From the NCBI GenBank assembly GCA_009829735.1, contig CM020620.1:13017420-13081419 (forward strand): a stretch of DNA of 64,000 nucleotides, written 5' to 3'. The notes beneath the pieces were generated by a model, which had not been told where the DNA came from, made no database searches, and saw nothing but the letters and a program-made list of their open reading frames with translations. A program made the translations under genes and the position numbers. Of the stretch, positions 15,101 to 64,000 are shown piece by piece. Numbering within the stretch: the stretch's first letter is position 1; each line of letters opens with the position of its first letter. Source of the stretch: Pyropia yezoensis. Lineage: Eukaryota > Rhodophyta > Bangiophyceae > Bangiales > Bangiaceae.

Positions 15101-16176
15101 CGCCCGTGACCGAGGAGGGCAACCAGTACCTCCTGGTCATCTGTGACCGCTTCACGAAACTTACGCGAGCGATCCCACTGGCAGAGATCACGGCCATGTC
15201 GGTCGTGTCAGCCTTCCTAGATCACTGGGTTGCCGCGTATGGCATCCCAGATAGTACACTATCGGACAATGGACCGCAATTTGCGTCTGTACTGTTTCAG
15301 GGAGTGCTGGATATGTTGGGGGTTAAGGCAAACTATGCCACCCCCTACCACCCACAAACTAATGGGCAGGTGGAGCGCTTCAACAAAACTATTGTTAGGC
15401 AGCTGCGCCACTATGTGAGTGAGCACGTGAAGACGTGGGACCAATACATTTCTATCCTTACTACTGCCTACAATTCACAGGTTCACTCATCTACAGGGGA
15501 AGTACCCCTCGCTTTTGTGACCCCCCGTCGCGTGCGGTCTATTGCCGTGCGGCGGTCGCTCCCAACTAGGGAGGATGGTGGCAGTACGCCTACTCCTACT
15601 GAGAGTAAGGCGGAGTTCGCCGCTAGGCTTGAAAACCTCATCCCTAAAGTCAGGGCTGAGATGGACAAAGCACAAAAGCGCTACAAGCGTACCTTTGACA
15701 AAAAGGTGCGCAATGCTAAACATGTCCCCGAGCAGGGTGACTGGGTGCTGGTACACTCGCACACCCCAACTGGGGGTAAGCTGGTATTCCAGACGAAGGG
15801 ACCGTACCAGGTCCTTCGTACTGATGGGCGGCGCTTCACCATCGAAAGTGACGATGGGGTCCGCACAGTGAACGGACAGGACGTGGTCAAAGTTGCACCA
15901 CCGCCTGCAGGCGACCCAGCTTGGGCACGTGCGTTGGAGTCGTGGCGCCTCCCCTCACTGCCTGCGGCCAAACAGGGCCCGCAGGAGTACGTGTTCGATA
16001 AGTTCATCGACCACGGATGGGATGAAGACACTGACCGCCTCATGTTGAGGGTGCGTTGGTTTGGCTACAAAGCCAAGGACGATACATGGGAGTATGTGGA
16101 GGACCTTCCTGCTGAGAAGGTCCGGGCGTACTGTGCCCGGAATGAGATAGACCCTAACAGCCCTCCCTCAACGTGA
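12193..16176 (+). pseudogene. pol: pol of Y: protease, RT, RNase H, integrase, chromodomain; broken
   Basis: Order: aspartic protease (DTGSG, Asp at 12433-12435), reverse transcriptase (FCIDYRKLN, then the YLDD catalytic box at 13762-13773), RNase H (LDVDASYDQ at about 14211), integrase HHCC finger and DDE core (about 14880-15600), and a C-terminal chromodomain (about 15985-16145: YVFDKF..., RVRWFGY, DDTWEYVEDL). The protease-RT-RNase H-integrase order is that of Ty3/gypsy, and the terminal chromodomain places it among chromoviruses. It is disabled by an extra C near 13980, a lost G near 14810 and a TAG replacing Trp at 14977-14979. The stop is at 16174-16176. Confidence 0.93.
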
Positions 16177-16287: not shown

Positions 16288-18231
16288 CTAGGCACGCATG
16301 CTAGACTCTCCCACTCCACGGCCCTTGCCCTCACGTGGAGGCGAGCGGCGATACCCACGCCGATAACGGTCTCCACTAGTTGGAGGGGGCGGCGGCTCCA
16401 AGTCGGAACCGTCGCGCCTCTCACGGTCGCGCAAGTGGCGCCGACCGTGGCCACTCTTCTGCCTGGTCTTGCGCGCAAGTTTGCGACGCAGACGCTGGAC
16501 AGACTCCGTCTCCGACGGGGTAGAGGACTCCGAGACGGAGTAAGCCAACTCGTCTTCCGACAAGGAGGGAGAGCGCCGAGAGTGTCGGCGACGACGGCGA
16601 GGAGGCGAGTATGCCCGGCTCGCGCGACGTTTGCCACGCCCAAGTGGGGCTGGCTGGGGCATAATAGCCCCAATACGAGCCAACTCGGCTGTCATAAACT
16701 CCGCCACCGACTCGCAACTCGCGGTCGCTACTGCAGTACGAACGCGCTCCTCAAGTTGAGGAGTCTCGGAACTCTGTAGGGTTGCGGTCGACGCGGCCAA
16801 CCAGGAAATGGTGCGCACCAACGTGGTGATCATCATCTCTGAGGTTAGAGGCGTGGGCGGCAACACCAACTTGGGGTATACCGTCAGGAGGGTGGCCCCC
16901 AAGTTGGGGGACACCGGGGTGGAAGACTCCACGGCCACGCTGATCGGGATGTTCCCGTGAGGTTGGAAAGGAACAGGAGGAAGCGGAGGGGCCCGCCGAG
17001 GTGGAGGTACCCGGGTGTAACTGCGACCCCGACTTGGGGCTCCCGCAGTGGGTTGAGTCATGTGGTCATCATAGGACGGCACGGCCATAACTATGGGCTT
17101 GTCCGGGGGTGGCGCAGTGTGGCGATCCACCCCCGGGGCATACGGGTAGTCCCCGATGCCCAACCCCTCTCGTAGGACCACACGGCCGTCGTGAAGTTCA
17201 CGAGCGACCCACACGAACTGGCGAAGTGCGCCATCGTCCTTGGGCCCACGAGTGGGGCGGCGCAACTTGTGCTCAATGCTCTCCCACTCGATAAACTTAT
17301 GGAGCCGGAGCATCTCCTCAAGTAGAGTGAGTTGTCCTGATGAGCACCCCTCAGCAACTAGCTGAGGGGTGAGCTGTTCCAAACCCTGGATGAGCCGGAG
17401 GGGGAGATGCCAGAGCATCCCCCGCCGCTGAACACAGGACACCCAGGTCGACATGACCTCGAGGAGCCACTGGGTGGCCAACATGGCCCACACCAGGTGA
17501 TCAGGGGCAGCCGTCAACATGACGGAGCCGAAGTGGTCAAGCAACCGGGGCAACAACGCCGGGAACCCGTAGGGGACCTCAACTTGAGGCCACCACTCGG
17601 GCTTCTTCGGATAGTACTGCTCCTTACTGGCAGCAGACTGTTGAGGAAACTCAAGTTGAGCCGAGGTCACCAAGTAGGGACCTCGCCGGAAGTCTTTCTC
17701 CATCCGCACATCAAAGTGATGAGTGTGCGGATCGGCCTCGTGGAGGTACGGTGGGCGAGTTGCCACAGTGTCCCACGTGAAGGTCGGCAAGTCGCCGGGA
17801 CCCGGGATAGTTCCCCCGCGGTCCACCATGGCCTTGGCACGTTGGACGTCATCAACCTCCTCGTCGTCCAGGAAGGCACACTGGTCCGTCCTGAAGCCGG
17901 CCGGGAACCCGACCCTACGGGGATACTTCTCCCGTAGGCGGTCCCATACCCGGCCCATCGCTGCGCCAAGTCGGCCACAGCGAAGAACAGTCAACCCCTC
18001 CTCATAAAGAGGCCAAGCGGGGTAAAACCACCGCCCCAAGGCCTCACGCGGGACAACTTGTCCCGCCTCCGGGGGAGACCCCGCCGTCAACCCAAAGCCG
18101 GGTGACGCGGGAGTCCCATCCCCCGGAGCGATCGCGGAGCCCCCGCCGGAAGTCCCGGCGGGTGCTGCACCGTAGGAGGTGTCCTCCATGCGCTCGTCAA
18201 GAGAGTCCGTCTCCACTCCCGGAGTCGCCAT
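16288..18231 (-). CDS. antisense accessory protein of family 1 (647 aa), intact in Y
   Basis: This gene lies between integrase and 3' LTR on the strand opposite to pol; the two converge with only 111 bp between stops. I chose the ATG at 18231 (MATPGVETDSLDERMEDTS) because the upstream 57 open codons are poorly conserved against copy C while conservation is high from here. Residues 1-60 are Gly/Pro-rich. Residues about 62-330 form a Trp-rich, apparently folded region, including FGSV (234-237) and HLP (275-277), a block shared with the family-2 antisense protein. A Pro-rich part follows, and the last 120 residues are rich in Arg-Ser and Arg-Arg (RRASRAYSPPRRRRR), suggesting nuclear localisation or RNA binding. 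I do not recognise a known domain; there is no zinc knuckle and no enzymatic motif. Function unknown. Confidence 0.8.
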   Translation of the reverse strand: MATPGVETDSLDERMEDTSYGAAPAGTSGGGSAIAPGDGTPASPGFGLTAGSPPEAGQVVPREALGRWFYPAWPLYEEGLTVLRCGRLGAAMGRVWDRLREKYPRRVGFPAGFRTDQCAFLDDEEVDDVQRAKAMVDRGGTIPGPGDLPTFTWDTVATRPPYLHEADPHTHHFDVRMEKDFRRGPYLVTSAQLEFPQQSAASKEQYYPKKPEWWPQVEVPYGFPALLPRLLDHFGSVMLTAAPDHLVWAMLATQWLLEVMSTWVSCVQRRGMLWHLPLRLIQGLEQLTPQLVAEGCSSGQLTLLEEMLRLHKFIEWESIEHKLRRPTRGPKDDGALRQFVWVARELHDGRVVLREGLGIGDYPYAPGVDRHTAPPPDKPIVMAVPSYDDHMTQPTAGAPSRGRSYTRVPPPRRAPPLPPVPFQPHGNIPISVAVESSTPVSPNLGATLLTVYPKLVLPPTPLTSEMMITTLVRTISWLAASTATLQSSETPQLEERVRTAVATASCESVAEFMTAELARIGAIMPQPAPLGRGKRRASRAYSPPRRRRRHSRRSPSLSEDELAYSVSESSTPSETESVQRLRRKLARKTRQKSGHGRRHLRDRERRDGSDLEPPPPPTSGDRYRRGYRRSPPREGKGRGVGESSMRA

Positions 18232-18556: not shown

Positions 18557-18569
18557 GAGGAGAGGGGAG
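18557..18569 (+). promoter_or_regulatory. polypurine tract of Y
   Basis: GAGGAGAGGGGAG directly abuts the 3' LTR start, as expected for the plus-strand primer of an LTR retrotransposon. The same tract occurs at 3480-3492 in A and, reversed, at 44985-44997 in C. It lies outside the antisense gene and supports the plus-strand polarity of Y. Confidence 0.85.
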
Positions 18570-19038
18570 TGTGGCAGTATTGACCCCCAGGTAGCGGGGC
18601 AACACGTGCCATGCAAGGGGCGGCAGGCCACTAGCCTGATCCGTTCCTCCCCCTGCATTTGGGTCCATATTCCCTAAGTTTAGGATAGTTAGCTTAGTAG
18701 TAAATCCAACTTGGATTTGAGGGTTTTCTGCATTTATCGTCTTGAATTTTCGTGTGGCCCGGTGGGCAGGTGCTGGGGTGGGAGATTCTGAGTGGCGAGA
18801 TTCTGAGGGGACCCTGGGGGGATAAGGGGAGGGACAGCGGGGCTTGGCCCTGCGTCCCCGTCCCGACCAAGAAACTGTTGGACCACACACCATCTTCTTG
18901 TTTGTCCGTGGGGGGTTTGCCCCACAACAGGGACAGAGTGTGTGCGACTTGCACTTCTTCCGGTTCCCCCGACACGGGAGGCAGCCCTGGCACACCGCCC
19001 CAACTTGGGTACCGTGTGTGCTTGTGGTTTTTGCCACA
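18570..19038 (+). repeat. family-1 3' LTR of Y
   Basis: The LTR is 469 bp, TGTGGCAG...TTTTGCCACA, preceded by the polypurine tract. Read antisense, it carries an open frame of about 155 codons with a cysteine cluster that runs out of the LTR toward the antisense gene and stops at 18528. It is followed by CCCGG, the presumed target duplication, and then the leader of X. Confidence 0.92.
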
Positions 19039-44515: not shown

Positions 44516-44984
44516 TGTGGCAAAAACCACTTACACACACGACACCCAAGTTGGGGCGGTGTACAAGGGCTGCCTCCCGTGTCGGGGGAACCGGAAGAAG
44601 TGCAAGTCGCGCACACTCTGTCCCTGTTGTGGGGCAAACCCCCCACTGACAAACAAGAGGATGGTGTGTGGTCCAACAGTTTCTTGGTCGGGACGGGGAC
44701 GCAGGGCCAAGCCCCGCTGTCCCTCCCCTTATCCCCCCAGGGTCCCCTCAGAATCTCGCCACTCAGAATCTCCCACCCCAGCACCTGCCCACCGGGCCAC
44801 ACAAAAATTCAAGACGATAAATGCAGAAAACCCTCAAATCCAAGTTGGATTTACTACTAAGCTTACTATCCCAAACTTAGGGAATATGGACCCAAATGCA
44901 TGGGGAGGAACGGATCAGGCTAGTGGCCTGCCGCCCCTTGCATGGCACGTGTTGCCCCCCTACCTGGGGGTCAATACTGCCACA
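44516..44984 (-). repeat. family-1 3' LTR of copy C
   Basis: The LTR is 469 bp; its sense direction runs right to left from TGTGGCAG at 44984. The plus strand has an open frame across the whole LTR with a cysteine cluster (CLPCRGNRKKC, CPCC), continuing to 45026 and pointing toward the antisense gene at 45323. One of its N-terminal cysteines is Tyr in this copy. Confidence 0.9.
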
Positions 44985-44997
44985 CTCCCCTCTCCTC
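44985..44997 (-). promoter_or_regulatory. polypurine tract of copy C
   Basis: GAGGAGAGGGGAG on the minus strand, directly before the 3' LTR in the sense direction of pol and identical to the tract of Y at 18557-18569. Confidence 0.85.
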
Positions 44998-45322: not shown

Positions 45323-47266
45323 ATGGCGACCCCGGGAGTGGAGACGGACTCTCTCGACGAGCGTATGGAGGACACCTCCTACGGTGCAGCGCCCGCCGGG
45401 ACTTCCGGCGGGGGCTCCGCGATCGCTCCGGGGGATGGGACTCCCGCGTCACCCGGCTTTGGGTTGACGGCGGGATCTCCCCCGGAGGCGGGACAAGTTA
45501 TCCCGCGTGAGGCCTTGGGGCGGTGGTTTTACCCCGCTTGGCCTCTATATGAGGAGGGGTTGACTGTCCTTCGCTGTGGCCGACTTGGCGCAGCGATGGG
45601 TCGGGTATGGGACCGCCTATGGGAGAAGTATCCCCGTAGGGTCGGGTTCCCTGCCGGCTTCAGGACGGACCAGTTTGCCTTCCTGGACGACGAGGAGGTC
45701 GAAGACATACAGCGGGCCAAGGCCGTGGTGGACCGCGGGGGAACTATCCCGGGTCCCGGCGACTTGCCGACCTTTACTTGGGACGCGGTGGCAACTCGCC
45801 CCCCGTACCTTCACGAGGCCGATCCGCACACTCATCACTTTGATGTGCGGATGGAGAAAGACTTCCGGCGAGGTCCCTACATGGTGACCTCGGCTCAACT
45901 TGAGTTTCCGCAGCAGTCCGCTGCAAGCAAGGAGCAGTACTACCCCAAAAAGCCCGAATGGTGGCCTCAAGTTGAGGTCCCCTACGGGTTCCCGGCGTTG
46001 CTACCACGGTTGGTTGACCACTTCGGCGCCGTCATGTTGACGGCTGGCCCCGATCACCTGGTGTGGGCCATGTTGGCCACCCAGTGGCTCCTCGAGGTCA
46101 TGTCGACCTGGGTGTCTTGTGTTCAGCGGCGGGGGATGCTCTGGCATCTCCCCCTCCGGCTTATCCAAGGTTTGGAACAGCTCACCCCTCAGCTAGTTGC
46201 TGAGGGGTGCTCATCAGGACAATTCACTCTACTTGAGCAGATGCTCCGCCTCCACAAGTTTATCGAGTGGGAGAGCATTGAGCACAAGTTGCGCCGCCCC
46301 ACTCGTGGGCCCAAGGACGATGGCGCACTTCGCCAGTTCGTGTGGGTCGCTCGTGAACTTCACGACGGCCGTGTGGTCCTACGAGAGAGGTTGGGCATCG
46401 GGGACTACCCGTATGCCCCGGGGGTGGATCGCCACACTGCGCCGCCCCCGGACAAGGCCATAGTAATGGCCGTGCCCTCATATGATGACCATATGACTCA
46501 ACCCACTGCGGGGGCCCCAAGTCGGGGTCGCAGTTACACCCGGGTCCCGCCACCTCGGCGGGCCCCTCCGCTTCCTCCTGTCCCCTACCAGCCGCACGGG
46601 GACATCCCGATTAGCGTGGCCGTTGAGTCGTCCACCCCGGTGTCGCCCAACTTGGGGGCCACCCTCCTGACGGTATACCCCAAGTTGGTGTTACCGCCCA
46701 CGCCTCTAACCTCGGAGATGATGATCACCACGTTGGTGCGCACCAATTTCTGGTTGGCCGCGTCGACCGCAACCCTTCAAAGTTCCGAGACTCCTCAACT
46801 TGAGGAGCGCGTTCGTACTGCAGTGGCGACCGCGAGTTGCGAGTCGGTGGCGGAGTTTATGACGGCCGAGTTGGCTCGCATTGGGGCTGTTATGCCCCAG
46901 CCAGCCCCACTTGGGCGTGGCAAACGTCGCGCGAGCCGGGCATACTCGCCTCCTCGCCGTCGTCGCCGACACTCGCGGCGCTCTCCCTCCGTGTCGGAAG
47001 ACGAGTTGTCTTACTCCGTCTCGGAGTCCTCGACTCCGTCAGAGTCGGAGTCGGTCCGGCGTCTGCGTCGCCAGCTTGCGCGCAAGACTAAACAGAAGGG
47101 CAGCCGCGGTCGTCGCCACTTGCGCGACCGTGAGAAGCGCGGCGGTTCCGACTTGGAGCCGCCGGCCCCGCCGACTGGTGGGGAGCGTTATCGCCGTGGG
47201 TCTCGCCGCTCGCCTCCTCGTGAGGGCGAGGGCCGTGGGGTTGGAGAGTCTAGCATGCATGCCTAG
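45323..47266 (+). CDS. antisense accessory protein of family 1 (647 aa), intact in C
   Basis: Counterpart of 16288-18231, with the same length and no indel that changes frame. The start is ATG 45323 (MATPGVETDSL). Sequence differences from the Y protein are scattered single substitutions (for example LREKYPRR versus LWEKYPRR, DVQRAKAMVD versus DIQRAKAVVD). The FGSV position reads FGAV here, while HLP is kept. The C-terminal Arg/Ser-rich tail is also kept. It converges on pol, with 111 bp between its stop and the pol stop. The two genes share neither strand nor promoter, so it may be transcribed from the 3' LTR read antisense or from sequence between LTR and gene; neither is shown. Function unknown. 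Confidence 0.8.
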   Translation: MATPGVETDSLDERMEDTSYGAAPAGTSGGGSAIAPGDGTPASPGFGLTAGSPPEAGQVIPREALGRWFYPAWPLYEEGLTVLRCGRLGAAMGRVWDRLWEKYPRRVGFPAGFRTDQFAFLDDEEVEDIQRAKAVVDRGGTIPGPGDLPTFTWDAVATRPPYLHEADPHTHHFDVRMEKDFRRGPYMVTSAQLEFPQQSAASKEQYYPKKPEWWPQVEVPYGFPALLPRLVDHFGAVMLTAGPDHLVWAMLATQWLLEVMSTWVSCVQRRGMLWHLPLRLIQGLEQLTPQLVAEGCSSGQFTLLEQMLRLHKFIEWESIEHKLRRPTRGPKDDGALRQFVWVARELHDGRVVLRERLGIGDYPYAPGVDRHTAPPPDKAIVMAVPSYDDHMTQPTAGAPSRGRSYTRVPPPRRAPPLPPVPYQPHGDIPISVAVESSTPVSPNLGATLLTVYPKLVLPPTPLTSEMMITTLVRTNFWLAASTATLQSSETPQLEERVRTAVATASCESVAEFMTAELARIGAVMPQPAPLGRGKRRASRAYSPPRRRRRHSRRSPSVSEDELSYSVSESSTPSESESVRRLRRQLARKTKQKGSRGRRHLRDREKRGGSDLEPPAPPTGGERYRRGSRRSPPREGEGRGVGESSMHA

Positions 47267-47377: not shown

Positions 47378-50300
47378 TCATGTCGAGGGAGGGCTGTTAG
47401 GGTCTATCTCATTCCGGGCACAGTATGCCCGGACCTTCTCAGCGGGAAGGTCCTCCACATACTCCCACGTATCATCCTTGGCTTTGTTGCCAAACCAACG
47501 CACCCTCAACATGAGGCGGTCAGTGTCCTCATCCCAGCCGTGGTCGATGAACTTATCGAACACGTACTCCTGCGGGCCCTGTTTGGCCGCAGGCAGCAAG
47601 GGGAGGCGCCACGCTTCCAACGCACGCGCCCAAGCTGGGTCGCCTGCAGGCGGTGGTGCAACTTTGACCACGTCCTGTCCGTTCACTGTGCGGACCCCAT
47701 CGTCAATTTCGATGGTGAAGCGCCGCCCATCAGTACGAAGGACCTGGTACGGCCCCTTCGTCTGGAATACCAACTTACCCCCAGTTGGGGTGTGTGAGTG
47801 TACCATCACCCAGTCACCCTGCTCGGGGACATGCTTAGCATTGCGCACCTTTTTGTCAAAGGTACGCTTGTAGCGCTTTTGTGCTTTGTCCATCTCAGCC
47901 CTGACTTTAGGGATGAGGTTTTCAAGCCTAGCAGCGAAATCCGCCTTACTCTCAGTAGGAGTAGGCGTACTGCCACCATCCTCCCTAGTTGGGAGCGGCC
48001 GCCGCACGGCAATAGACCGCACGCGACGGGGGGTCACAAAAGCGAGGGGTACTTCCCCGGTAGATGAGTGAACCTGCGAATTGTAGGCAGTGGTAAGAAT
48101 AGAAATGTATTGGTCCTACGTTTTCACATGCTCACTCACATAGTGGCGCAGCTGCCGAACAATAGTTTTGTTGAAGCGCTCCACCTGCCCGTTAGTTTGT
48201 GGGTGGTAGGGGGTGGCATAGTTTGCCTTAACCCCCAACATATCCAGCACTCCCTGAAACAGTACAGACGCAAATTGCGGTCCATTGTCCGATAGTGTAC
48301 TATCCGGAATGCCATACGCGGCAACCCAGTGATCTAGGAAGGCTGACACGACCGACATGGCCGTGATCTCTGCCAGTGGGATCGCTCGCGTAAGTTTCGT
48401 GAAGCGGTCACAGATGACCAGGAGGTACTGGTTGCCCTCCTCGGTCACTGGCAGTGGCCCAAGGATGCTCATCGCCAACGCGGCAAAGGGCTCCTTGGCC
48501 GGGAACAATAGCATAGCCGTAGTAGGCCGCCGTTCCATCAGACGGTTCTGTGCACAACTTGTGCAGGCAGCCACCCAACTGTAGATGTCCACCACCATGG
48601 ACGGCCAGTAGTACCTGGTCCTCAGGGTCTGGTACAGATTACTAGACCCCAGGTGTCCACCTGTGGGAGCGTTATGCTCCCTCTCAAGGATACTGTCCTT
48701 GAGGGATGCGGGGACGACTAGTTGTTCGGTCCCCTGGAATACCCCCCTCCTCATGAGGAGACCATCGTCTCCCAGAAAGAACCGCGTCTCCGCCACTGTA
48801 TCCAGTGTATCCCTCTGCGACTTGCAGAAGGGATCCTCGGCCTGGGCCTTCACCACCTCGTCCATGGACAGGGGCAAGTACTTCTTGTTCCCTGGCGCCT
48901 CGGGGTTCAACACCTGACCCGAGCGCGTGACTACCCCCACGATGGGGATGTCCTCATCGACTGGGTTAGTGTCCAGCCCCTCGGTAGGTACCCGAGAAAG
49001 GCCGTCGGCAAGGGCATGTTGCCTGCCAGGTCGGTACTCAATATCAAAGTTGAAGGGTGCCAGTCGCACCCTCCACCGGTTGAGACGAGTGTTCGTACAG
49101 TCCGTCTTAAAGATGAACTGCAACGCGCGGTGGTCACAGCGGATGAGGAACTTCTCACCCACTAGGTAGTGACGAAGTGACGTCACCGCCCACACCACTG
49201 CGAGTCCTTCCAACTCGGTGACTCCGTAGTTCTTCTCGGCCGAGTTCAGCCCCTTGCTGAAGTATCCCACCGGCAAGTACTCCTTGTCCGGCGGCTGCTG
49301 AAGCAATACACAACCAATTTGGTCGTAGCTAGCGTCCACATCCAGGATGTAGTGGCCTCCCAACCTGGGAATAGCCAGGATAGGGGGCTTCAGCAGAAGG
49401 TCCCGAAGAGTCTCAAAGGATTCCAGCTCCACCCGACTTGGGGGTGGCAGGTTCTTCGGTAGCGTTGAGCTCACTAACTCATTCAACGGCTTCGCCACCT
49501 TGGCGAAGCACTTGGTGAAACGTCGGTAAACGTTACACATCCCGAGGAAGCTCCTCATCTGGGTCTGGGTCCGGGGGTACTGAGCCTTACGGATGGCCCT
49601 CAAGTTCTTCTCGTTGACACTGAGACGCCCCGGACGGACAACATGTCCCAAGTATTCCACCTCTTGAGTGAAGAGGTGGCACTTACTCGCCTTCAGTGAC
49701 ACACCGGCGTCAGCAAGTAGCTTGAACACCTGGCCAAGATGGCCAATGTGTTCCTCCGGACTTCGGGAGAACACAATGATATCGTCTAGGTACACGAGAC
49801 AGATTTGCCACCGTACTCCGGCCAGAATCATGTCCATAGCGCGCTGGAAAGTTGCCGGCGCGTTGCACAGTCCAAACGGTAGTCGCTTGCACTGGTAGGT
49901 ACCACAGTGACAGGTAAAGGTAGTTTTATGCCTGTCTTCCGGGGCAATGGGAATTTGCCAGTACCCCGCATTACAGTCCAGGGTAGAGAACACGTTAGCC
50001 TCCCCCAGAGAGTCCAGACAGTCGTCCATCCTAGGTAGGGGATAACTGTCCTTCACCGTGCTCTCGTTGAGCTTACGGTAGTCGATACAGAACCGGGGGG
50101 TCCCATCAACTTTGGGGACGATAACCACCGGACTCGCCCACTCGGCGTTACTGGCCTCGATAACATCGAGGGCCTCCATGCGAGCAACTTGCTCCTTAAC
50201 GAGGGCCCTTGAACGGGGTCCTCCCCTATACGGTTGTTGGCGTATAGGGGGTGCACCGGGCTTCAACTCTATCCGGTGTTGGGTAGCTCTCATGAGTCCC

Positions 50301-51359
50301 AATTGACCATCCCACAACTTGTGATATTGGTCCAAGAGGCGTTCAACTTGAACCCTCAACCTGGGTGGAACACCCTCCATGTTCACATGGGGCCGAGGAG
50401 AGGCGGCCGACTTGGCTTGATGCTTCTCCTTTCCGGACTTCGGGTCGCTACTTGCGCCCGCGTTGAGGGTGACCGCTACTACCGGTCCCTCGTGTTGGTC
50501 GATATAGCCGAACTTGGCTCCCGACTTGGAGTACTTGGGCGACGAGCTCAGGTTCATCACCTGGATCCTCCACGGGACTCCAGCTTTGGAGTCCATCATG
50601 CCAAGGGCAACATGCACTTGGTGCTTGCGAGCAAGACGGGGGTAAGGGTGCACCAGCCCGTTCCCCGTATAATCAGTTACAACATCAACGTGCGCCACCG
50701 AGTTGGGGGGCAACGTGACTTTACGGGCTAAACGCAGGGTAGCAGTAAACCCTTCTCTCACAGAGCAAACAGGCTTCGACTGTGAGACTGTCACAGGAGC
50801 CACAAACTTTCCCTTACCAAGGATGGGGATAGTCTCCCCATTCATCAACTTGACCCAGTACTCAGGGCCACAAATCAACGGCACTTGTGTTACGACATAA
50901 GGGGTACCCAGAAGGGGGTACCGATACATTCTCAGCTACACCATAGGTCACGTCGACCTCATGGGTCCCCAACCTAGTTGGTAGGGTCACGGCACCAACG
51001 ATGGGAAGTACCCCACCATTGACATCGATCAGATGGTCAGCTTTAGACTTCCAGCGTTGGAGCTTCATCTCCTTTGGTAATAGCGACTTGCGTATCAAGA
51101 AGGCTCCTGACCCGGTATAAAGTACGATACGGGCACAACAGGCGCGGCCGGGGGCAAGTTGCACCCGTCCAGCCACCTGGAAGTTCTCACCCGTCAGCAC
51201 CGCGATGACCCGACGTGGGTTTACGTTCTTGGGGAGTCCTACCCGAGGTGGGTGGACTCCCTTAGGTCGCCGCAGTATCCGGCACGGTTGATTCGTCCTC
51301 TTGACCCACTTGGCCGAGGCTGCCGTTGTGAGCTTCGGACGACCAGCTCCAACGGTCAT
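47378..51359 (-). pseudogene. pol: pol of copy C: protease to chromodomain, broken
   Basis: Same domain order as Y. ATG at 51359 overlaps the gag stop as ATGA. A two-base deletion near 50910 separates the protease part (51359-50862) from RT-RNase H-integrase (50929-48116). A TAG replaces a Trp codon near 48116, and the integrase C-terminus and chromodomain continue at 48037-47378. The catalytic Asp of the protease is Tyr (codon 51119-51117: YTGSG for DTGSG), so the protease would be dead even without the frameshift. YLDD and the integrase HHCC finger are intact. Confidence 0.92.
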
Positions 51360-53634: not shown

Positions 53635-53997
53635 TGTAGCACAATAGGAATCCGTCGCACGTCCACTCTCAGGGAACACTCACCAAGGGGGATCGGCACC
53701 AACGTCACCGGGAGGCCAAGGTTGCTGTCCTTGGAGCGCAAGCCACGGGACCAAGATGGGAGCCCAAATGGGAGGGGTTTGTTGTTCTACCTTGGCCGGC
53801 GGTGGATTCGCCACCGGCCCCCTCGTTATAAACCCTCGGAGACACTACTAACTACCCTCCACCCCAAGATGCAAGTCCCTCTGGTCATACGTAACTTATA
53901 GATACCGTGACCAGCTCGGACTCTCAAATTGAAGTTAAGGATTAGAAGTAGCCCCCCCTAATATTAGGGTCACAATACGGACAACCATATTGCTGCA
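53635..53997 (-). repeat. family-2 3' LTR of copy D
   Basis: The LTR is 363 bp and starts TGCAGCAATATGG in the sense direction (one change from TGTAGCA in E). It is in the same orientation as D gag and pol, preceded by the polypurine tract. It is the canonical direct-repeat arrangement. Confidence 0.9.
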
Positions 53998-54010
53998 TAT
54001 CCCCCCCTTT
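53998..54010 (-). promoter_or_regulatory. polypurine tract of copy D
   Basis: AAAGGGGGGGATA on the minus strand, adjacent to the 3' LTR start. Confidence 0.8.
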
Positions 54011-54555: not shown

Positions 54556-57003
54556 ATGTCCTATCCCCAGGTGCTTGAAGAGGAGGAAGACCTCCTGATC
54601 TGGGAGGAGATGGAGGACGACGCGCCTGTCGGTCCCGACGCCGCGCGTTACGGGGTGAGCTCGTCTGACGACGACGGGCCTGCGGTGTCCGTCCGTCTGT
54701 CGGCCGGAGGACTGTCGTCCGTGTGCAGCGGCACGACGGTGCCGTCGGCCGGCGGTCAACCCGGCGGTCAACCGCGCGTGGCGGCTTGTACCCCCTCTCT
54801 GCCGGCTGCCCGGATGGAGCCTGGTGCCGGTGCCGGCTCACCGCAGCTACCTCAAGATGGTCCGCCCTGCGGCGGAGGTGGCGACCCGCAGCCGACTTCG
54901 GCTGGTCAAGGTGGTCCGGGTGTCCGGGCGGTGACTCCTCGAGGCGGTCCCGACGTTGACGCGGGTGGTGGTGGCGGTGCGACACCCGGTGCGGCGGGTC
55001 AAGACGGTGCGGGTGCCCGCACGGCCGGGGCTCCGGCTCCGGAGGCTGTCCAAGTGCCTTCCCCTTCCAAGGCGGGGGCTACGCCGACGGGTGGTGCCGG
55101 CGCCGGTACCATACCTGCGGTGCCGCGGGTGTCGAGCGGTCAAGACGCTCCTTCTCCCATAGCGGTTGACACCGGGAGTTACTCCGGGCGGGCGCCCGCC
55201 CTTCTTCTTCCTCCTCGGCCTCGTCCATCTCCGACGTCGGCCCCTCTGCCGGTGGTGCGTCCCCCGGCGCCCCCGATTCTTCCTGGTCCTGCCCGGGTTG
55301 CCCCGTTGGGTGGCGGCGTCGCCGTGGCGGCGGGTCAACCCGCCATGTCGGTGTCCGACTTGGTGGCTCGGGTTCGAGGCCTCACGGTGCAAGAGTCGAT
55401 GGAGTCCGATGGGCGCATGCGGGTGGACTTCCACCTGGTGCATCCCCGTGGAGAGTCCTCCCGGCGCGTCAAGGTGGACCCGAGCTGGGAGCGGGAGTTG
55501 GTGCGGCTGGTCAACCAGCCGAACGCGGTCCGGGTGGAACACCATTGGATCCTGAGTCAGCCGGACGACCGGCATGCGCAGCTCTGGCGCACCCGGGTGG
55601 GACGGGGTGAGGTCTACCTCGACCCCAACTTCGGGGTCTGCGACCTGATTGCCCCCGCGTTGCCGCGGGAGATTGACTACCCGGCTAGTGCTCGGGGGAT
55701 TGCGGCGGCGGCGGAGCCGGTTGCGTTTGGGGAGACGGTGGGCAGTACCGGTCGGTATCCCGACTTTGATTACTACCCGGGGGTACCCCCGTATCTGTCG
55801 TTGACGGCTCCCTACCCGCCTATGGCGGGGTTGAGGTCGGCGTCGAGTTGGCGACGTAACCATGGTGTCATGGCGGATGCGTTCCGCACGGATATAACGT
55901 GTGCGTTGCAGACCGGCAACGGTCGTGCTCCGGTATACACTCCCGTGCGCCCGCCGCTATGGCAGGAGGGGTGGGAACCCGCCCCTGCTTTCCGGTTTGA
56001 CACCGGCTCCTGTCTTCGCTACTTCGGGAGTGTGTTGGCCTCGCGACCGGTCCACCCGTTGCAGGGTACCTTCACCCTTGAGGTTACCCTCGGGCAGGCT
56101 TCATCCTTCTTGCTGTCCGTCCGCCGGCAGGGTCGTCTGTTTCATCTTCCGACGGGTGTCCGTCGGCACATCGCGCAGTTGGGCGTGGATCTGATAGCCG
56201 CCAAGACCGGGTTGGCCCGGGAGTTCGACGCCCTGCTGGCTGTTCACGATGCCGTGAACTGGGCTGGGGTGTTGGCCCTTCCCCCGTACCGGGACCCGCA
56301 GGCTGGAGCTTCCCCCTTGCCTCGTCACTCGTTGCTTGTCCGGCGTACTCAGCCGGGTGAGCCCAGTTGCCATGGGTGGGCATCCACCGAGGCTGTTGCT
56401 GACCTGGGTATTCCCATGGTTATCCATGACCCTCTTCAGGTCCTTGCTCCGTGGTTCGGTAACCCGATGCCGGCGGCGGTTGGCCGTCGTCCCCGAGAGT
56501 GGGGCTCTGAGGGTGGGGAGCGTGAGGTGTCCCGTCGTCGGGCGGAGTACCGCCGTGGTTGCGGTGGAGCCTCTTCGGTAGGGTCCTACCGGGCCTCGTA
56601 TCAGGTGCCACCGGCTCCGGTGGTAGCCGTGTCGGCTCCTGTGGCTCCTCTGGCTGCGTCAGTGTCACCTCCCGCCCCTGTCCTACATGACGGGGGTCCC
56701 CGTCTCTGGTATGAGGGCGTTGACGCCCTTGTTACCCGCGCAATGCGTGGGGGTCTCTCTGTTAGCTGGGGGGATATCCCCCCAGGTGCTGCGCTGGTTG
56801 GGTCAGCGCGTTGCTTCGGTGGCGTGCTGGACCGCCTCCAGAAAGCTCTGGAGGACGTGGAGGCTGGCCGCAGCACCCTCGTCCAGCTATGCACCGAGGT
56901 AACTCGGGTGGTCGACCGTTGTGACATTGCCGACCGGTGGAGCACGGAGGTATACGCGCTTACGCGTGAGTGGCCTCCCTCGGGCAGTGGGTCTACCCAC
57001 TGA
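54556..57003 (+). CDS. antisense accessory protein of family 2 (815 aa)
   Basis: Opposite strand to D pol, between pol and the 3' LTR, the same place as the family-1 antisense gene. ATG 54556 (MSYPQVLEEEED) starts an acidic head of about 25 residues. Residues about 50-265 are Gly/Pro/Ala/Thr low complexity. From about 265 the sequence looks folded: DFHLVHPRGESSRRVKVDPS, RGEVYLDPNFGVCDL, then FGSV (490-493), 36 residues, and HLP (530-532) with RRQGRLFHLP and AVHDAVNWAG. The Y protein of family 1 has FGSV, 37 residues, HLP, and RRGMLWHLP with a similar helical continuation. The last 90 residues suggest helices (VLDRLQKALEDVEAG). Unlike family 1 there is no RS-rich tail. The frame is intact. Function unknown. 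Confidence 0.8.
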   Translation: MSYPQVLEEEEDLLIWEEMEDDAPVGPDAARYGVSSSDDDGPAVSVRLSAGGLSSVCSGTTVPSAGGQPGGQPRVAACTPSLPAARMEPGAGAGSPQLPQDGPPCGGGGDPQPTSAGQGGPGVRAVTPRGGPDVDAGGGGGATPGAAGQDGAGARTAGAPAPEAVQVPSPSKAGATPTGGAGAGTIPAVPRVSSGQDAPSPIAVDTGSYSGRAPALLLPPRPRPSPTSAPLPVVRPPAPPILPGPARVAPLGGGVAVAAGQPAMSVSDLVARVRGLTVQESMESDGRMRVDFHLVHPRGESSRRVKVDPSWERELVRLVNQPNAVRVEHHWILSQPDDRHAQLWRTRVGRGEVYLDPNFGVCDLIAPALPREIDYPASARGIAAAAEPVAFGETVGSTGRYPDFDYYPGVPPYLSLTAPYPPMAGLRSASSWRRNHGVMADAFRTDITCALQTGNGRAPVYTPVRPPLWQEGWEPAPAFRFDTGSCLRYFGSVLASRPVHPLQGTFTLEVTLGQASSFLLSVRRQGRLFHLPTGVRRHIAQLGVDLIAAKTGLAREFDALLAVHDAVNWAGVLALPPYRDPQAGASPLPRHSLLVRRTQPGEPSCHGWASTEAVADLGIPMVIHDPLQVLAPWFGNPMPAAVGRRPREWGSEGGEREVSRRRAEYRRGCGGASSVGSYRASYQVPPAPVVAVSAPVAPLAASVSPPAPVLHDGGPRLWYEGVDALVTRAMRGGLSVSWGDIPPGAALVGSARCFGGVLDRLQKALEDVEAGRSTLVQLCTEVTRVVDRCDIADRWSTEVYALTREWPPSGSGSTH

Positions 57004-57482
57004 GGAGTGCTATTGTTTGTGCGGGAGAGGGCCCCGGCAACCCTTATGGTAGCCGGGTAGTAGTGAGTATAAACTCATCCCCCTTTGGGGGCATTGTTTG
57101 CCTCTGTTTGCTGCCCTGGGGAGCACCCCTTCTGGCTCAGTGGTGCCTTGCCTCCCGTCCAACTTCTTCCGGTTGGTTCATGCTTGGGGAGGTCATCCTC
57201 CCTCACTTGGTGTCTTGGCTTGGGGAGGTCATCCTCCCGTGTAAGCCCCCTAGTTACTTCGATATTATCGGAGTTAGCCTTTACCTTTAAGTTAACTTAT
57301 TAAGGTTCAGGTTTTACTTAGTTACCTAAGCTTAGCTCTACTTAGTTACCTAAGCTTGGTTCGACTTAGAAACCTAAGTCTGATTTGACTTAGAAACCTA
57401 AGTCTGCCGTAACCATGTCACGCCCTACTTAGTAGGTATAAGCCTCACCCCCCAACAGCCGAAGTCGGTATCGGTTGGGTTG
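57004..57482. other. convergent intergenic region of element D
   Basis: 479 bp between the stop of the antisense gene and the stop of pol on the other strand. Besides the four hairpin units it is noticeably AT-rich for this element (57250-57420) and holds a direct repeat of a cttggggaggtcatcctcc motif (57183-57201 and 57220-57238). Probably it holds the 3' ends and poly(A) signals of the antisense mRNA; no protein is encoded. Confidence 0.55.
57316..57411. repeat. four 24-bp tandem units, each an imperfect palindrome
   Basis: Units start at 57316, 57340, 57364 and 57388; each begins ACTTAG, then TTA or AAA, then CCTAAG, so each can fold into a short hairpin (CTTAG/CTAAG arms). Units 1 and 2 share the TTA loop, units 3 and 4 the AAA loop, so the array grew by duplication. 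It lies in the 479 bp between the convergent stops of the antisense gene and pol. Confidence 0.9.
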
Positions 57483-60400
57483 TTACAGTAGGCGTCGTCG
57501 CCTCATGTAAGGCATGAGGAGTTGGCGGGGTATGTTTGCCGCCTGTTCCCAGGTGGGTGAGTCGTATCCGACCCATATAACCTTGACGTACCAGGGTCCT
57601 GGTAGGTCCGGGTCGGTGTGTCCGACCACGCTCTCTACTTGGTATGGAATCCCATCCGGTCCCACCGGGTCATCTGATCGGTGGGTTGTAAGGGCTTCAT
57701 GTAGCAACCCAGCCGGTACCGGCTGAGGCTGTTCCGGCTTCGGAGCAGGTGTGACATCATTCATGCTGATGCGTTGGATCTCCGTATCGGAGTGTAAAAT
57801 AACAGAGTGGTCATCTCTGTGGAGGATCTGGTACGGTCCCTTGACCGGTTGCATAAGCTTGTTCCCCCGGAACTTCTGGTGTCTGATATAGACCCAGTCA
57901 CCTGTTACCAGGGTTGCGTTGCGCACCCGTAGTCGGGCGTCGAAGTTCTTCTTATATCGAAGTTGTGTTCTGTCAAGGGCACCCTTGAGCTTAGGAATCA
58001 TCCACGATAGCTTGGCCAACCAAGCTAGGTGGATGCGTTCGGCGGGTCGGCCCTTCGGTGTATCATGCCGAGTGCACCTGCCGGGTGGCAGCGTCAGGTT
58101 ACCGACGCCTAGTGGCATGACCCACTCCAGCGGAGCGATGTTCGTGCTCCGATGCGGCCTGGCATTGTATGCCAGGGTGAGTACGGACAGAAGCCTGTCC
58201 CAAGTGTTCGTGTGCTCGGCCACGTAGCACTGTAGCATCTTTACGATGGTGCGGTTGAACCGCTCCACCTGCCCGTTGGACTGCGGGTGGTAGTCGGATG
58301 CCCGACGTGGTTCGATACCGAACATGCCCAGGACCTTTGTGCAGAATGCCGACGTAAGGTTTGCTCCGTTATCGGAGAGGAGTTGCTTCATGACTCCGTA
58401 TGCACTGATCCAGTGGTCAACCACTGCGTTCATGATGGTGTATGCCGTATCATTCGGGATGGCTGCCGCTCGTGACAGCTTAGTGAAGCGGTCAGACATG
58501 ACCAGGATGTACCTGTTCCCTTCTTTAGTTACCGGAAGTGGCCCGAGTATGTCGATAGCGACTTGCTCGTTGGGCCCATCGGGTGGGAATAGCTTCATGG
58601 CAGACGCCTGCCTATGCAGACTCATGCGGTTACGCGCACAGGGGTGGCATCCCCTTACGTGGTCGACCACGTCGACGGCCATTGCTGGCCAGTAGAAGAA
58701 TCTTCGCATTGCTGCGAACATACGTGAACCCCCCGGGTGTCCGGCTGTAGGGTTCTCGTGCTCTCGTTCCATGACGGCTTGCCGTAAGGACACGGGAACC
58801 ACGACTTGATGTCGTCCATCGGCGGGTGCCCGCCGGTATATGAGTCCGTCTTCGTTCTCGGAGAAGATGCCGGCCGTACCGGCCAGGAGGTTAGCACGAT
58901 GACGTCTACAGTCATCGTCGTTGGCCTGTGCCTCGCGGAAGTCCGCGAGGGTCAATGGGTACGCAAGGTGTGCCATGGTATGGTCAACCATACCCTGGGT
59001 AGCATTACCCACCATGCACACCGGTACCACCGGGATGTCCTCGTCCACCGGGCGGGTATCCCCGCTCGGGGTGTCGAGTCGAGACAACGCGTCTCCGAGG
59101 TGGTGGGTTGACCCATCCTTATACACCGTGCGGTAGTCGTGCTCGGCCATCTTCAGCCTCCATCGGGCTAGCCTCCCATGGCTATCGGAATCCTTGTCAC
59201 CAAGGTTGAGGAGCCATCGTAGGGGTTCGTGGTCGGACCTCACGATGAACCTGGAGCCCTCCAGGTATGGACGGAGCAGTTGCACTGCCCATATAACTCC
59301 GAGGCATTCACGCTCGGTGGCACTATAGTTCCGCTCAGCCGGGTTGAGTGTCCGGCTGAAGTACCCTACCGGACGTAGGTCCGGGATAACGTTGTCGGTA
59401 CCTATCAACGTCTCTCCCTGTAACAGGGTGCATCCCACTTGTGTATCACACGCATCGACATCGATGACGAAGGTACCCCGTCTATGCGGTAACGCAAGGA
59501 CGGGTGGGGCTAGTAGGGCTCGCTTCAGCGACTCGAATGCCTCCTCTTCGCTAGGCGAAGGGGGTTGGAGTACCTTGGGTAAGGTACTGCTCGTAAGAAC
59601 CGTTAACGGTTTAGCTATCCGAGCGAAGTCCTTGACGAACCGTCGGTATACATTGCACATTCCCGGGAAGCTCTTGAGCTGCGTCTGGGTGTTAGGGAAC
59701 CGGGTATCCCGGAGTGCCCGGGTATTGGCTTCGAGTACCCCTAGTTTACCAGGGGTTATCTGGTGGCCCAGATACTCGACGGTCTGTTGGAAGAAGGCGC
59801 ACTTCTTCAGACGCAGGGTTACCCCGGCGCTCCTCAAGAGGGTGAGTACCTCGTCCACATGTTGCAGATGGTCATCCATGCTACGCGAGAAGACGATGAC
59901 GTCATCGAGGTACACTAGGCAGTTACGCCACTTCACCCCCGACAGTATGATGTCGATAGCCCGCTGGAATGTAGCGGGGGCGTTGGACAATCCGAAGGGC
60001 ATCCTTAGGAACTCGTACACTCCACTGTGACAGACGAATGCCGTCTTGGGGATATCCTCGTCCGCCACCGGGATCTGCCAGTATCCGGCATTGCAGTCGA
60101 TGGTGGTAAACACCGTAGCCTCCCCCAGGGAGTCGATGCATTCATCCATCCTTGGTAAAGGGTAGGAGGTTTCTTGGTAACCAAGTTGAGGCGTCGATAA
60201 TCGATGCAAAACCGAGGGGTTTGATCCTTCTTCGGCACAATAACGACTGGGGCACCCCATTCCGACATCGAAGGTCGGATCACCTTAGCTTCACTCATCC
60301 TCTTCACTTCTCCATCAACGATCTCTCGTTGCATAGGTCCCGCTCGGTGCGGTTGTGAGCGGGCGGGTCGTGCGCCTGGTACCAGGTCTATACGATGTTG

Positions 60401-61648
60401 GGTTGCCCCAATGGTCCCCAAGGCCCCGCCTGTCCACATAACGTCATGCTTTCTTAGCATCCGTCGTACCCCTTCGGCTACCGAAGGGGGAAGGTGGTCG
60501 AGGTCAGCCTCGGCCAGTGCCTTCAAGGCCTCTTGGTCCTTTGGCGGCAGGTCCGCCGGAGCCGCCGATGGGTTAGGCTTCCCGTCATCGGGTTGCTGTC
60601 GCTCGGTGGTCTCGGCGACCGCCAGTACTTCAAGTGGTTCCACTTGACCTTCCTTATCAGGGGTAAGGATATCTCCTTCGTAGAGTTCGGCAATCCCGAG
60701 GATAGTTCCCTTCGGGAGGGTGACTGCCTTACGGCGATAGTTCGCCATCACTAGGAGGGACGACCCTCCTGCTGGGAGGTCTATGAGACCGTTGGCCATG
60801 GTCAACCCATGGCGCTTGTACGTCCGTAGGTTGGACTGGACTCTGCAGATGCCTGCGAGGTCACAGTTAACCGGGAGGACTGTCTCCGACAACAGCTCAA
60901 AGCGAGTTCGCTTGGCCAACCGAAGTGTCTTCGGCTCGACACTTGCGTACACCTCAGCCACGCTAACGTGGCTCCCTTGTAGCGTCAGGTCCCTGACGAT
61001 AGCCGTATGACCTCGCTTCGTCCCGTCGGCTTCTTGAAGCTCGACGGTCCTCCGGCCTGGCCGGATTGCATCAACGTGAACGTTGATGAAGGTGCACCCC
61101 AGTATGCAGGGCACCGATAGCGTTTCACATACCAGGAAGTCAACTTCCGTGGTGAGATCCCCGATGGTAACCTGCAGCGACATCGCTGCGGTCGTACGAA
61201 TGAGTCGACCATTCGCGTCCTTGATGGTGGGTCCCCGAGTCACTCTGACTCGTGGAAGCCACTTGTCCGGGAGGGTATCCTTCCGGATAAGGTTGGGTCC
61301 AGCCCCTGTGTCCAGTACAGGGTAGTACGATCGTGTCGACTGGGGGTCAACCCCCAGTGTGGCTGATACCTTGAAGTTCTCCAAGGTAAATAACACATGT
61401 CCTACACCGATATCCGGTGTAGCTCGGGCATCCTGAACAGGGCCCTTGTCTGGTTTAACGTGACGGGGCTTCCCGTCCTCTCCTCCCAACCTTGGAGGTT
61501 GGTCATCAATCCCCTGACGCCGTGTCGTCGGGGCCGGAAGGTGTACCCGGGGGTTGATGCGGCGTCGGCTCAACCGCGCTCTCCGTGGGGCTTTCCCCGC
61601 GGTACTCCGGGGTGGCTTGCTTGGGTAACCCCAGCGCCCCCCGGTCAT
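57483..61648 (-). pseudogene. pol: pol of copy D: protease to chromodomain, one frameshift
   Basis: ATG 61648 lies 8 nt after the gag stop. Protease VLDTGAGPNLI; RT with FCIDYRRLN, then a one-base loss near 60170 that shifts frame (first part 61648-60005, second 60260-57483), then the YLDD box (59912-59901). RNase H has VIDVDACDTQVG; integrase has an HHCC finger (AGHPGG, HPCARNR) and DDE core (AIDILGP, LSDNGANL, NGQVERFN). The C-terminus has a chromodomain (YQVESVVGH, YVKVIWVGYDSPTWEQA). A single lesion in over 4 kb suggests recent activity, or a sequencing error. Domain order and chromodomain match family 1. Confidence 0.93.
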
Positions 61649-61656: not shown

Positions 61657-63840
61657 TTACTCGTTTCCCGCCCTTGGTAGGGTGCTGTCCGCCGGGCCAT
61701 CCGGCTGAGGAGGTGCCTCCTCGACGGCCAGTACTCCACCTGGAGCTGGCTGCCTACCCGGTGCGGGTCCCGGTGCAAGGGCGGGATACCCCCCGGTGGA
61801 TGCCTTGCGTTGCGCCGCTGCCCGTCGAGACTCCTCGGGGATGAGTGGGCAGGAAGACACCCAGTGCTGGGGATCCCCACACAACATACACCCGGACGTG
61901 CCGGTCCCCCCTTGAGTTCGCATCGGGGTAGCCCCGTAGCTACGGTTGCCTCCCTCGGGCGCCCGAGTGCCTGCTCCCTGGTAGGCCTTGGGTCCTTGGG
62001 TCAACCGGAACATGGATTCCCCCAACCGGTTGGGTCGGCCCGCAATCTGCGGAGGTGCCTCCGTGCGCACCGCCCATGTTGGCAAGGGTTGGTGAGGGTT
62101 ACCCGTCACCGGGGAGTACCCCGTAGTCCGCACATACGGGACGCGCCGTCCCGTTCCTTCGTTGACCTGGAACTGGGTTCCAGCCGGGGCGATGTACGCT
62201 ACCGTACCATGTTCATCAATCACCGGCGTCGCCGGTAGCAACAGGTGGCCCTGTTGGTCGACTAGAGGGTCATCCTCACCAATAGGGGTATGTTCGGTCG
62301 CCACCAGTACTGGTGCGGCCTTACGTTCCACCTTCTCTTGCCTCGGTACCGGGGTAAGACTGGGCTTGCCTCCCTCACCCTTGGGTTTCGGGGCCAAGGC
62401 ACACTCCGGGTGTAGAACCCGGTAGGCGTCCCCTAGGGACTTGCACATATGCATCAGTCGACTGAAGTTCGTCCGTGCCGTGTTGGCGCCCCGTGCGGAT
62501 ATCCGCACGTAGTTCGGTACACCTGCGAACAGGATGGCCCGTAGCTCCCCTTCTCCGAGGAGCTTCCCCAGCTCGTAGTCGAGCTCTTGGATCCGGCGTC
62601 CAAACATCTTCTCATCCTCCCAGGACTGGGCGGTGGCAGTGCGAAGGGCCCGATAGTGGTCCTCGCACTTGTCCTCACTGAGGTAGCTGCTCAGCAGCTC
62701 CTTCAATATCCCACGGTAATCCATGGGGGTGGCCGCGACCCTCATTCCCGGCATCGGGGATGCCTGGCGAAGAATGCCTCGCACCCGTTCATCAACAAAG
62801 AACGGGAGGATCTCCAGGGCCAGCCCCTCGTTAACGAGCGCCTTGTCTGCGGCTGCCTTGAAGCTATTCAAGAAGCCGATGACTGCCAACGGGCGTCCGT
62901 TCGGCCCCCCGAACATAGGGACTCCCTTCATAAGGGTCTGCATAGAGCGGATCGCCCGATGCGACGTAGTACGCATCGATTCCGATACGGTGGTAGAGCG
63001 GTCCTCCAAACGATAACGTTCCGGAGTAAGAACCGACCGGAAGACCTCGTTGACGATCTCCGTGTCAGCGTCCTGGATATCCAGTCGCTTAGCCAGTTGA
63101 TGAGCGAACTCATCGGACTCCATCCGCTTCAGTAGGCTCGCAGTTACCTGCGCGGTCATAGCTTCCACCACTGAAGATGGTACTTCAGGCGTCGGCACCT
63201 CGGGAACCCGAGTTGCCTGGCCTCCTTCGTCGTGGGGGTACTGCGAGAGGGTACCCCCTCCCCCAATAACCGACTCTCCCCCGGCGTACGTATCCGCCGG
63301 GTCGTGTCCGCGGAGTCCGCTTCGGGTGCTCCGAGCGTATCGCTCCGTGTGACTCCGTTCCAACTCTGCCGACGAGTCGGACCCATACCCCCTTGTGTCC
63401 GGGGGTTGTCCAGGAGTAGCAACCCCGGGATTGACCCTGGTGGACTCCGAAAATAGTCCGGCCGGTTCGAACCGTACCGGTGTGGGAGGAACACGACGGG
63501 GTCCCGTCGTGTGCCGTGTTGACATCAACACTGCCATTGCGTCCTCCGTCCGATCTTGACGGGCGTCGAGCCCGGAAAACCGGGCCTCGATGCGGGCCAA
63601 TGATGCCATCAGGGAATCCCCTGGTGAAGGAGGCGGCGGAGTGAGGTCGGTCGACGACAGTTGAGGCGGGCCCCCGCCTCCTGCCGTCCGAGCCGTGCCA
63701 AACGTCGATCCGGCACCGGAAAGCATTGGCGTCTCAATGTTATCGATCGGGTTCCCGATCCCGGTTCCCGTAGTCACCTCCGGAGTCGGCGTCGACGCCG
63801 ATCCGTCATCTTGAACGTTCCCCGTCTCTTGGGTAGACAT
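61657..63840 (-). CDS. gag: gag of copy D with CCHC zinc knuckle (727 aa)
   Basis: ATG 63840 (MSTQETGNVQDDGS), chosen by agreement with copy E. A Gly/Pro/Thr/Ser-rich N-terminal third is followed by a helical capsid-like region (about 235-460) and a linker containing EDDPLVDQQGHLLL. A zinc knuckle CMLCGDPQHWVSSC (C-x2-C-x4-H-x4-C) is encoded at about 61890-61849, and the C-terminus is Pro/Ala-rich, ending AGNE, like family-1 gag. It stops 8 nt before the pol ATG, so gag and pol are separate frames rather than one polyprotein. It forms the virus-like particle that holds element RNA. Confidence 0.93.
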   Translation of the reverse strand: MSTQETGNVQDDGSASTPTPEVTTGTGIGNPIDNIETPMLSGAGSTFGTARTAGGGGPPQLSSTDLTPPPPSPGDSLMASLARIEARFSGLDARQDRTEDAMAVLMSTRHTTGPRRVPPTPVRFEPAGLFSESTRVNPGVATPGQPPDTRGYGSDSSAELERSHTERYARSTRSGLRGHDPADTYAGGESVIGGGGTLSQYPHDEGGQATRVPEVPTPEVPSSVVEAMTAQVTASLLKRMESDEFAHQLAKRLDIQDADTEIVNEVFRSVLTPERYRLEDRSTTVSESMRTTSHRAIRSMQTLMKGVPMFGGPNGRPLAVIGFLNSFKAAADKALVNEGLALEILPFFVDERVRGILRQASPMPGMRVAATPMDYRGILKELLSSYLSEDKCEDHYRALRTATAQSWEDEKMFGRRIQELDYELGKLLGEGELRAILFAGVPNYVRISARGANTARTNFSRLMHMCKSLGDAYRVLHPECALAPKPKGEGGKPSLTPVPRQEKVERKAAPVLVATEHTPIGEDDPLVDQQGHLLLPATPVIDEHGTVAYIAPAGTQFQVNEGTGRRVPYVRTTGYSPVTGNPHQPLPTWAVRTEAPPQIAGRPNRLGESMFRLTQGPKAYQGAGTRAPEGGNRSYGATPMRTQGGTGTSGCMLCGDPQHWVSSCPLIPEESRRAAAQRKASTGGYPALAPGPAPGRQPAPGGVLAVEEAPPQPDGPADSTLPRAGNE

Positions 63841-64000
63841 AGTCACAATCAGTCAACCGACGCAACGATCACCACGAATAAGAGAGCGAGGGGGTAGATT
63901 GGGGAGAGTAACAGTAGGTCACAGTCACAGGTAAAAGCTCAACACAATCGATCAGGTCGCAACACCACGAGTACAAGAAAAGGACCGGATCCCTATCCGT
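63841..64000 (-). other. 5' leader of copy D
   Basis: Matches the leader of copy E (about 52165-52326), with a pyrimidine-rich CTCTCTTATTCG stretch. The window ends before the PBS. Confidence 0.85.

Follow-up and report, generated by a model that had tools for sequence, protein, structure and literature searches.

Homologous antisense genes between pol and the 3' LTR in two Ty3/gypsy families of the red alga Pyropia yezoensis

Two families of elements in one window

The window analyzed here is a stretch of 64,000 nucleotides from the red alga Pyropia yezoensis (assembly GCA_009829735.1, contig CM020620.1, positions 13,017,420 to 13,081,419). It holds copies of two Ty3/gypsy families, called here family 1 and family 2, both resident in a genome of 107.5 Mb in 11 contigs. 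In each, the interval that separates the pol stop from the 3' LTR contains a long reading frame, which runs in the direction opposite to pol (Table 1). An earlier note, made from the letters of this DNA, had claimed three intact frames of this kind; all three are present and intact, in that place and orientation.

Table 1. Features of the two families, in positions of the window
Feature	Position	Strand	Basis or remark
Family-1 antisense ORF, copy B, 647 aa (P0001)	16288..18231	-	stop-to-stop frame to 18462
Family-1 conserved core, copy B, residues 95-319	17275..17949	-	BLASTP range
Family-1 antisense ORF, copy C, 647 aa (P0003)	45323..47266	+	
Family-1 antisense ORF, copy A, broken	1219..3156	-	compared with copy B, lacks single bases at six scattered places
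Family-1 3' LTR, copy B	18569..19038	+	
Family-1 3' LTR, copy C	44516..44985	-	
Family-1 pol, copy B, split into three frames	12034..16176	+	Pfam
Family-1 pol frame, copy C	48116..50929	-	inverted match to copy B
Family-2 3' LTR	53635..53997	-	partner LTR about L021:186-544, past window end
Family-2 polypurine tract beside 3' LTR	53998..54010	-	read from sequence
Family-2 antisense ORF, 815 aa (P0002)	54556..57003	+	stop-to-stop frame begins 54493; homologous to family 1
Family-2 conserved core, residues 361-572	55636..56271	+	BLASTP range
Family-2 C-terminal helical bundle, residues 745-804	56788..56967	+	sole well-predicted part, block pLDDT 76-94
Four palindromes CTTAGnnACCTAAG, 24-base spacing, between antisense stop and pol stop	57315..57406	.	
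Family-2 pol frame: RT, RNase H, integrase	57483..60260	-	Pfam
Family-2 frame: protease and start of RT	60005..61648	-	Pfam
Family-2 gag frame	61657..63846	-	weak zinc-knuckle match

Both families have the order protease, RT, RNase H and integrase, as read from Pfam matches and from the alignment of one pol with the other; RT, RNase H and integrase are called by Pfam in each. Both also have an LTR pair with TG..CA ends, a primer-binding site and a polypurine tract. A 5-base target-site duplication is legible in six of eight copies, the LTR edge having been moved by a few bases in two. The family-1 LTRs have 469 bases, in an element of about 9.4 kb; those of family 2 have about 362 bases, in an element of about 10.8 kb (as measured on other copies). 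Because the LTRs of a pair are 98.3-99.8% identical, the insertions are recent. Elements are described here as observed, with no sequence repaired or joined.

The family-2 element of the window runs along the minus strand and looks complete: its gag and pol frames lie within 57483-63852, and its 5' LTR is just past the window end. The zinc-knuckle match in its gag frame is below the cut-off. Between the families, pol is 45% identical over 901 columns, and gag 25% over 220 columns. Both families carry the same primer-binding stretch of 19 bases, TTGGYGGAGCAGCAGGGGA, at the inner edge of the 5' LTRs, even though their pols have diverged so far; it is found in all eight copies, one of which is a single base off (C at the Y).

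The earlier note had called both families chromoviruses. This stands in part. Family 1 has a chromodomain match (PF00385, E 2.4e-4), but its 21.4 bits lie under the Pfam cut-off of 25.1; in family 2, the Pfam model calls no chromodomain at E 1 or better. Family-2 pol does align with family-1 pol to residue 932 of 934, that is, through the end of the chromodomain region.

Some other features of the window may be recorded. In family-1 copy B (12034-18231), the antisense frame is intact while pol is split into three frames. At 8216-11632, an inverted family-1 LTR (9714-10182) is flanked by an inverted repeat with 98% identity over about 1.46 kb. At 51742-53637, an LTR and gag-side piece of a second family-2 copy, in the opposite orientation, adjoins the complete copy and cuts off family-1 copy C. 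Between 32001 and 40000, the GC content climbs to 76-77%, and both strands carry long frames that overlap.

Layout around the antisense frame

Among the best matches scored in the genome, a long frame opposite gag-pol, between pol and the 3' LTR (aORF-3R), is found in most copies. In family 1, this frame and pol converge, with stops 111 bases apart, and about 340 bases separate the start codon of the antisense frame from the 3' LTR. For family 2, the gap from stop to stop is about 480 bases, and the start is about 560 bases away from the 3' LTR. This layout, opposite pol, means that a separate antisense transcript would be required.

The wider gap of family 2 contains the palindromes CTTAGnnACCTAAG, which start at 57317, 57341, 57365 and 57389, exactly 24 bases apart. 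Eleven other family-2 loci, representing seven distinct copies, were scanned; four palindromes are present in eight of the loci and three in the other three. This conservation proves little, of course, as the copies are about 98-99% identical. The array may be a set of binding sites for the antisense protein or a signal for the end of transcription; both are candidates. Inspection by eye found no palindrome array in the 111-base gap of family 1.

The antisense proteins compared

When the family-1 and family-2 antisense proteins are compared by BLASTP, they score 53.1 bits (E 2.9e-11), with 24% identity. Of 1000 shuffles (20-residue blocks, composition kept), 539 gave any hit, the highest at 27.7 bits, and the reversed protein reached 26.9 bits. 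A profile-profile comparison had been set beforehand as the test that could refute the kinship suggested in the earlier note; hhalign gave a significant match (probability 86.6, E 4.4e-6, 186 columns). By these comparisons, the proteins of the two families are homologous over about 190-230 residues.

That kinship had first been proposed from a short motif, and here the details needed correction. FGSV, then 37 residues in family 1 or 36 in family 2, then HLP, QLxxxL[VI]A and [LV]HxxxW do occur with the right spacing, but the copy at 45323-47266 has FGAV in place of FGSV. Similarly, RRxGxL[WF] before HLP is literal in family 2 (RRQGRLF), but the aligned residues of family 1 are QRRGMLW. The similarity reaches far beyond the motif, across 230 aligned columns. 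Relatives of the family-2 protein from Pyropia vietnamensis were compared with family 1 as well: P0006 and P0007, in which the core is complete, reach 43.1 and 43.5 bits, and P0009, in which the core is cut off, reaches 20.0 bits. Direct comparison of the C-terminal parts of the two families gave only short, weak matches and no shared region. Protein P0014 was omitted from alignments A4-A6; P0008, P0009, P0010 and P0020 were omitted also from A5 and A6.

Intactness and selection

The antisense frame is seldom interrupted. In family 1, 64 of 68 scored genomic copies (the best 68 of 3688 candidates) have no stop; in family 2, the figure is 52 of 55 (the best 55 of 38274 first-look candidates). 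As the best matches alone were scored, these fractions are not a genome-wide rate.

Variation among the copies is also informative. In family 1, 180 sites vary, and 118 of them are third positions of this frame (binomial p 1e-18). Over 14 unique copies, with gap columns ignored and broken copy A included, pN/pS is 0.11. In gapless full-length loci of that family, six copies of the antisense ORF give a ratio of 0.137, four copies of the 3' part of pol give 0.154, and two copies of gag give 0.24, one gapped copy having been dropped from each set (of 7, 5 and 3, respectively). When copies B and C are compared with each other, the overall value for the antisense ORF is 0.17, with 0.08-0.17 in four parts of the protein and 0.38 in the Arg/Ser-rich tail. 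As judged from these ratios, constraint on the family-1 antisense ORF matches that on pol.

In family 2, third positions account for 77 of 162 variable sites (p 1e-4; both binomial values assume independent sites). Here, pN/pS is 0.42 over 15 unique copies, from 15 of 18 sources, the other three loci having no match over 90% of the ORF. Over five gapless copies, the antisense ORF gives 0.53. The comparison values, also from five copies, are 0.39 for gag and 0.18 for pol. Four of the five pol copies have 1-3 gap positions, so that pol yields no ratio in the gapless set; its value (0.176) was obtained with the gapped copies retained and gap columns ignored. The other five frames across the family-2 ORF all have stops in 8 of 8 copies, with ratios from 0.66 to 1.46. 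The family-2 signal of selection (0.42-0.53) is weak, similar to that of gag and well above the value for pol. Family 2 is the younger of the two families.

By these measures, purifying selection acts on the antisense protein in its own strand and frame, with a constraint like that on other genes of the element: near pol in family 1, gag-like in family 2. Since this selection stands at the level of pol in family 1, and since nearly all of the scored copies are free of stops, the antisense frame is a real gene.

Relatives in other genomes and in this one

The earlier note had suggested a profile search for relatives elsewhere, and family-2-type relatives exist in another species of the Bangiales. 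In searches of about 5.8 billion proteins, each with 8000 candidates scored, the family-2 query gave at least seven matches, five of them annotated as P. vietnamensis, whose family-2 relatives are 52-57% identical. A joint profile gave at least 16 matches, eight of which are P. vietnamensis entries labeled "hypothetical protein"; no other species is named among the matches. The family-1 query alone gave at least one match, which carries no species name; no family-1-type relative from a named second species was found among the 8000 candidates scored.

The genome of the window itself contains further family-2-type antisense lineages, mostly as long open frames (C2:9532415-9544189, C2:3993339 and C2:6021275). 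Compared with protein P0015, one genomic place is 97% identical and has one stop; two others, 64-65% identical, stay open for 850 and 895 codons, and a fourth, 59% identical, has an open frame of 772 codons.

One gene in a common ancestor, or two arrivals

Identity between the families is 45% in pol, 25% in gag and 24-25% in the antisense core, and these levels are consistent with common descent. Most likely, the ancestor from which both families derive already carried the antisense gene. The earlier note had proposed an old accessory family, kept as the two lineages diverged. The homologous protein in both families, the purifying selection, the family-2-type relatives in another species of the Bangiales and the levels of divergence all fit that proposal; against it stands the want of a family-1-type relative in a named second species.

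The gene might instead have been acquired separately by the two families, or been passed between co-packaged elements by recombination, rather than descending with pol. The comparison does, of course, rest on two families. Further, the bdelloid rotifers offer additional ORFs that are common to unrelated retroelements (PMC5408684), and no family-1-type relative is known from a named second species. However, the gene has the same site and the same orientation in both families, its core has diverged as deeply as gag, and the primer-binding stretch is common to both. Separate entry is possible but unlikely.

Fold and domain searches

The antisense proteins have no meaningful match among Pfam, PHROG, PDB or viral-fold models. 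AlphaFold gave poor models for the family-2 fragment (mean pLDDT 39.6, pTM 0.24) and for the family-1 core (mean pLDDT 38.8, pTM 0.34). Helices are predicted at residues 223-241, 246-270, 278-293 and 298-313 of the family-1 protein, and at residues 484-494, 499-525, 533-551 (two helices) and 554-566 of the family-2 protein. About the HLP turn, both of these poor models thus show the same succession of helices. This is weak support for a common fold, because the two model inputs share sequences. At its C-terminus, the family-1 protein has an Arg/Ser-rich tail; for the helical bundle near the end of the family-2 protein, the structural search returned no telling match.

Known antisense genes at this site

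An antisense gene at this site is a known kind of gene, as antisense ORFs in the interval from pol to the 3' LTR have been described in the plant elements Grande, RIRE2, Retand and PvRetro13 and in the fungal element Boty (PMC7264820). Gag and pol are regarded as sufficient for the movement of an LTR retrotransposon (PMC7264820). In the Retand lineage, TRP28 is encoded at this site in 97% of the clusters of elements that may have been active recently (PMC11963269). The antisense protein of Grande is nuclear, and regulatory roles for the antisense proteins of Grande and Retand have been proposed by the authors (PMC7264820; PMC11963269).

The closest parallel is with the Retand-lineage elements (Grande, RIRE2, Retand), which, like the red-algal ones, are Ty3/gypsy elements with a long frame opposite pol ahead of the 3' LTR in most copies (PMC11963269; PMC7264820), and which also have repeats in the same interval (PMC11963269). 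However, Retand is described as a non-chromovirus lineage with flowering-plant hosts (PMC11963269); here, the host is a red alga, TRP28 has no match at the HMM level and the protein family is one without a match. Boty, in Botrytis and Sclerotinia, places an antisense ORF at the same site outside of plants, a likeness of position (PMC7264820). Chlamyvir and other plant and algal chromovirus clades have a chromodomain at the end of integrase, as family 1 weakly does; unlike the elements here, they are given no antisense ORF in the available parts of their description, and the likeness is drawn from the chromodomain (PMC6317226). HBZ of HTLV-1 and other retroviral antisense genes also lie near the 3' LTR and encode a regulator, a likeness in putative function (PMC11963269). 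The bdelloid rotifer ORF3 is, as here, an extra gene common to diverged retroelement families, but it encodes recognizable enzymes or env-like proteins (PMC5408684), whereas the red-algal protein has no known match.

In the literature searched, outside of which most subscription papers fall, none of the titles and abstracts listed describes an antisense ORF in red-algal elements. By comparison with these accounts, the protein family and the host group appear new, and so does the chromodomain-type lineage, to the extent that a weak chromodomain match can show it.

What the antisense protein might do

The reading preferred here, to which we give a probability of about one half, is that the antisense gene is a true accessory gene of a red-algal chromodomain-type Ty3/gypsy lineage, ancestral to both families, and that it encodes a regulatory, probably nuclear, factor from an antisense transcript of its own. 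A nuclear regulator encoded by the element is the preferred function, unproven as it is. We infer it from the need for a separate antisense transcript, from the intact frames, from the pol-like constraint in family 1 and from the analogy with Grande and Retand.

Under this reading, the transcript would start in or beside the 3' LTR and end in the convergent gap ahead of the pol stop. The protein made from it would work as a regulator, probably in the nucleus. Its core and its C-terminal part (the Arg/Ser-rich tail in family 1, the helical bundle in family 2) might join nucleic acid or chromatin. The protein would then control the element's transcription, the fate of its RNA or its entry to the nucleus, as has been proposed for Grande and Retand. 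The palindrome array adjoining the family-2 gene would be a candidate target.

The function might, of course, be something else. The layout would imply overlapping sense and antisense transcripts, and the protein could accordingly serve in counter-defense against silencing by the dsRNA of convergent transcription, or in movement from cell to cell. The domain and fold searches, however, have no match that points either way, and a role of this kind appears unlikely.

It is improbable, in turn, that the red-algal protein and the plant TRP28 (PF04195) proteins are distantly related, as forms of one ancient gene. They do lie in the same place and orientation within a Ty3/gypsy element, and the palindromic or tandem repeats beside the family-2 gene recall the tandem arrays of about half of the Retand elements (PMC11963269). 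At the HMM level, however, a search of the window's genome with PF04195 found nothing at E 10, and 19 antisense proteins, together with 8 other sequences or fragments, gave no match either; TRP28 is, moreover, reported in PMC11963269 from flowering plants only. The same doubt attaches to a broader speculation, that an antisense regulator was ancestral to the Ty3/gypsy elements of the plant supergroup, with the red-algal family and TRP28 as remote relatives that have lost their likeness in sequence, and with a long-kept regulator that works as retroviral HBZ or Rev does and acts on palindromes such as those at 57315-57406.

A gag paralogue is a much poorer candidate. A truncated gag product of Ty1 interferes with assembly and limits copy number, and a gag-derived antisense protein could do likewise; its rate of divergence is indeed gag-like. 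Yet the antisense protein has no similarity to the gag of either family at E 1 or better, and such an origin is highly improbable.

Chance in GC-rich DNA, suggested by a GC content of mostly 56-64% around the elements and by the long both-strand frames where GC reaches 76-77%, is contradicted by the shuffle test, the codon-position excess, the pN/pS ratios and the conservation in a second species, and can practically be dismissed.

Implications

In family 1, selection keeps the antisense gene as firmly as pol, and the gene is common to lineages whose pols are 45% identical. Under the preferred reading of an element-encoded accessory gene, antisense accessory genes would be extended to chromodomain-type elements of a red alga. 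Here, the many intact and recent copies would make antisense transcription, localization and binding accessible to ordinary RNA-seq and expression tests.
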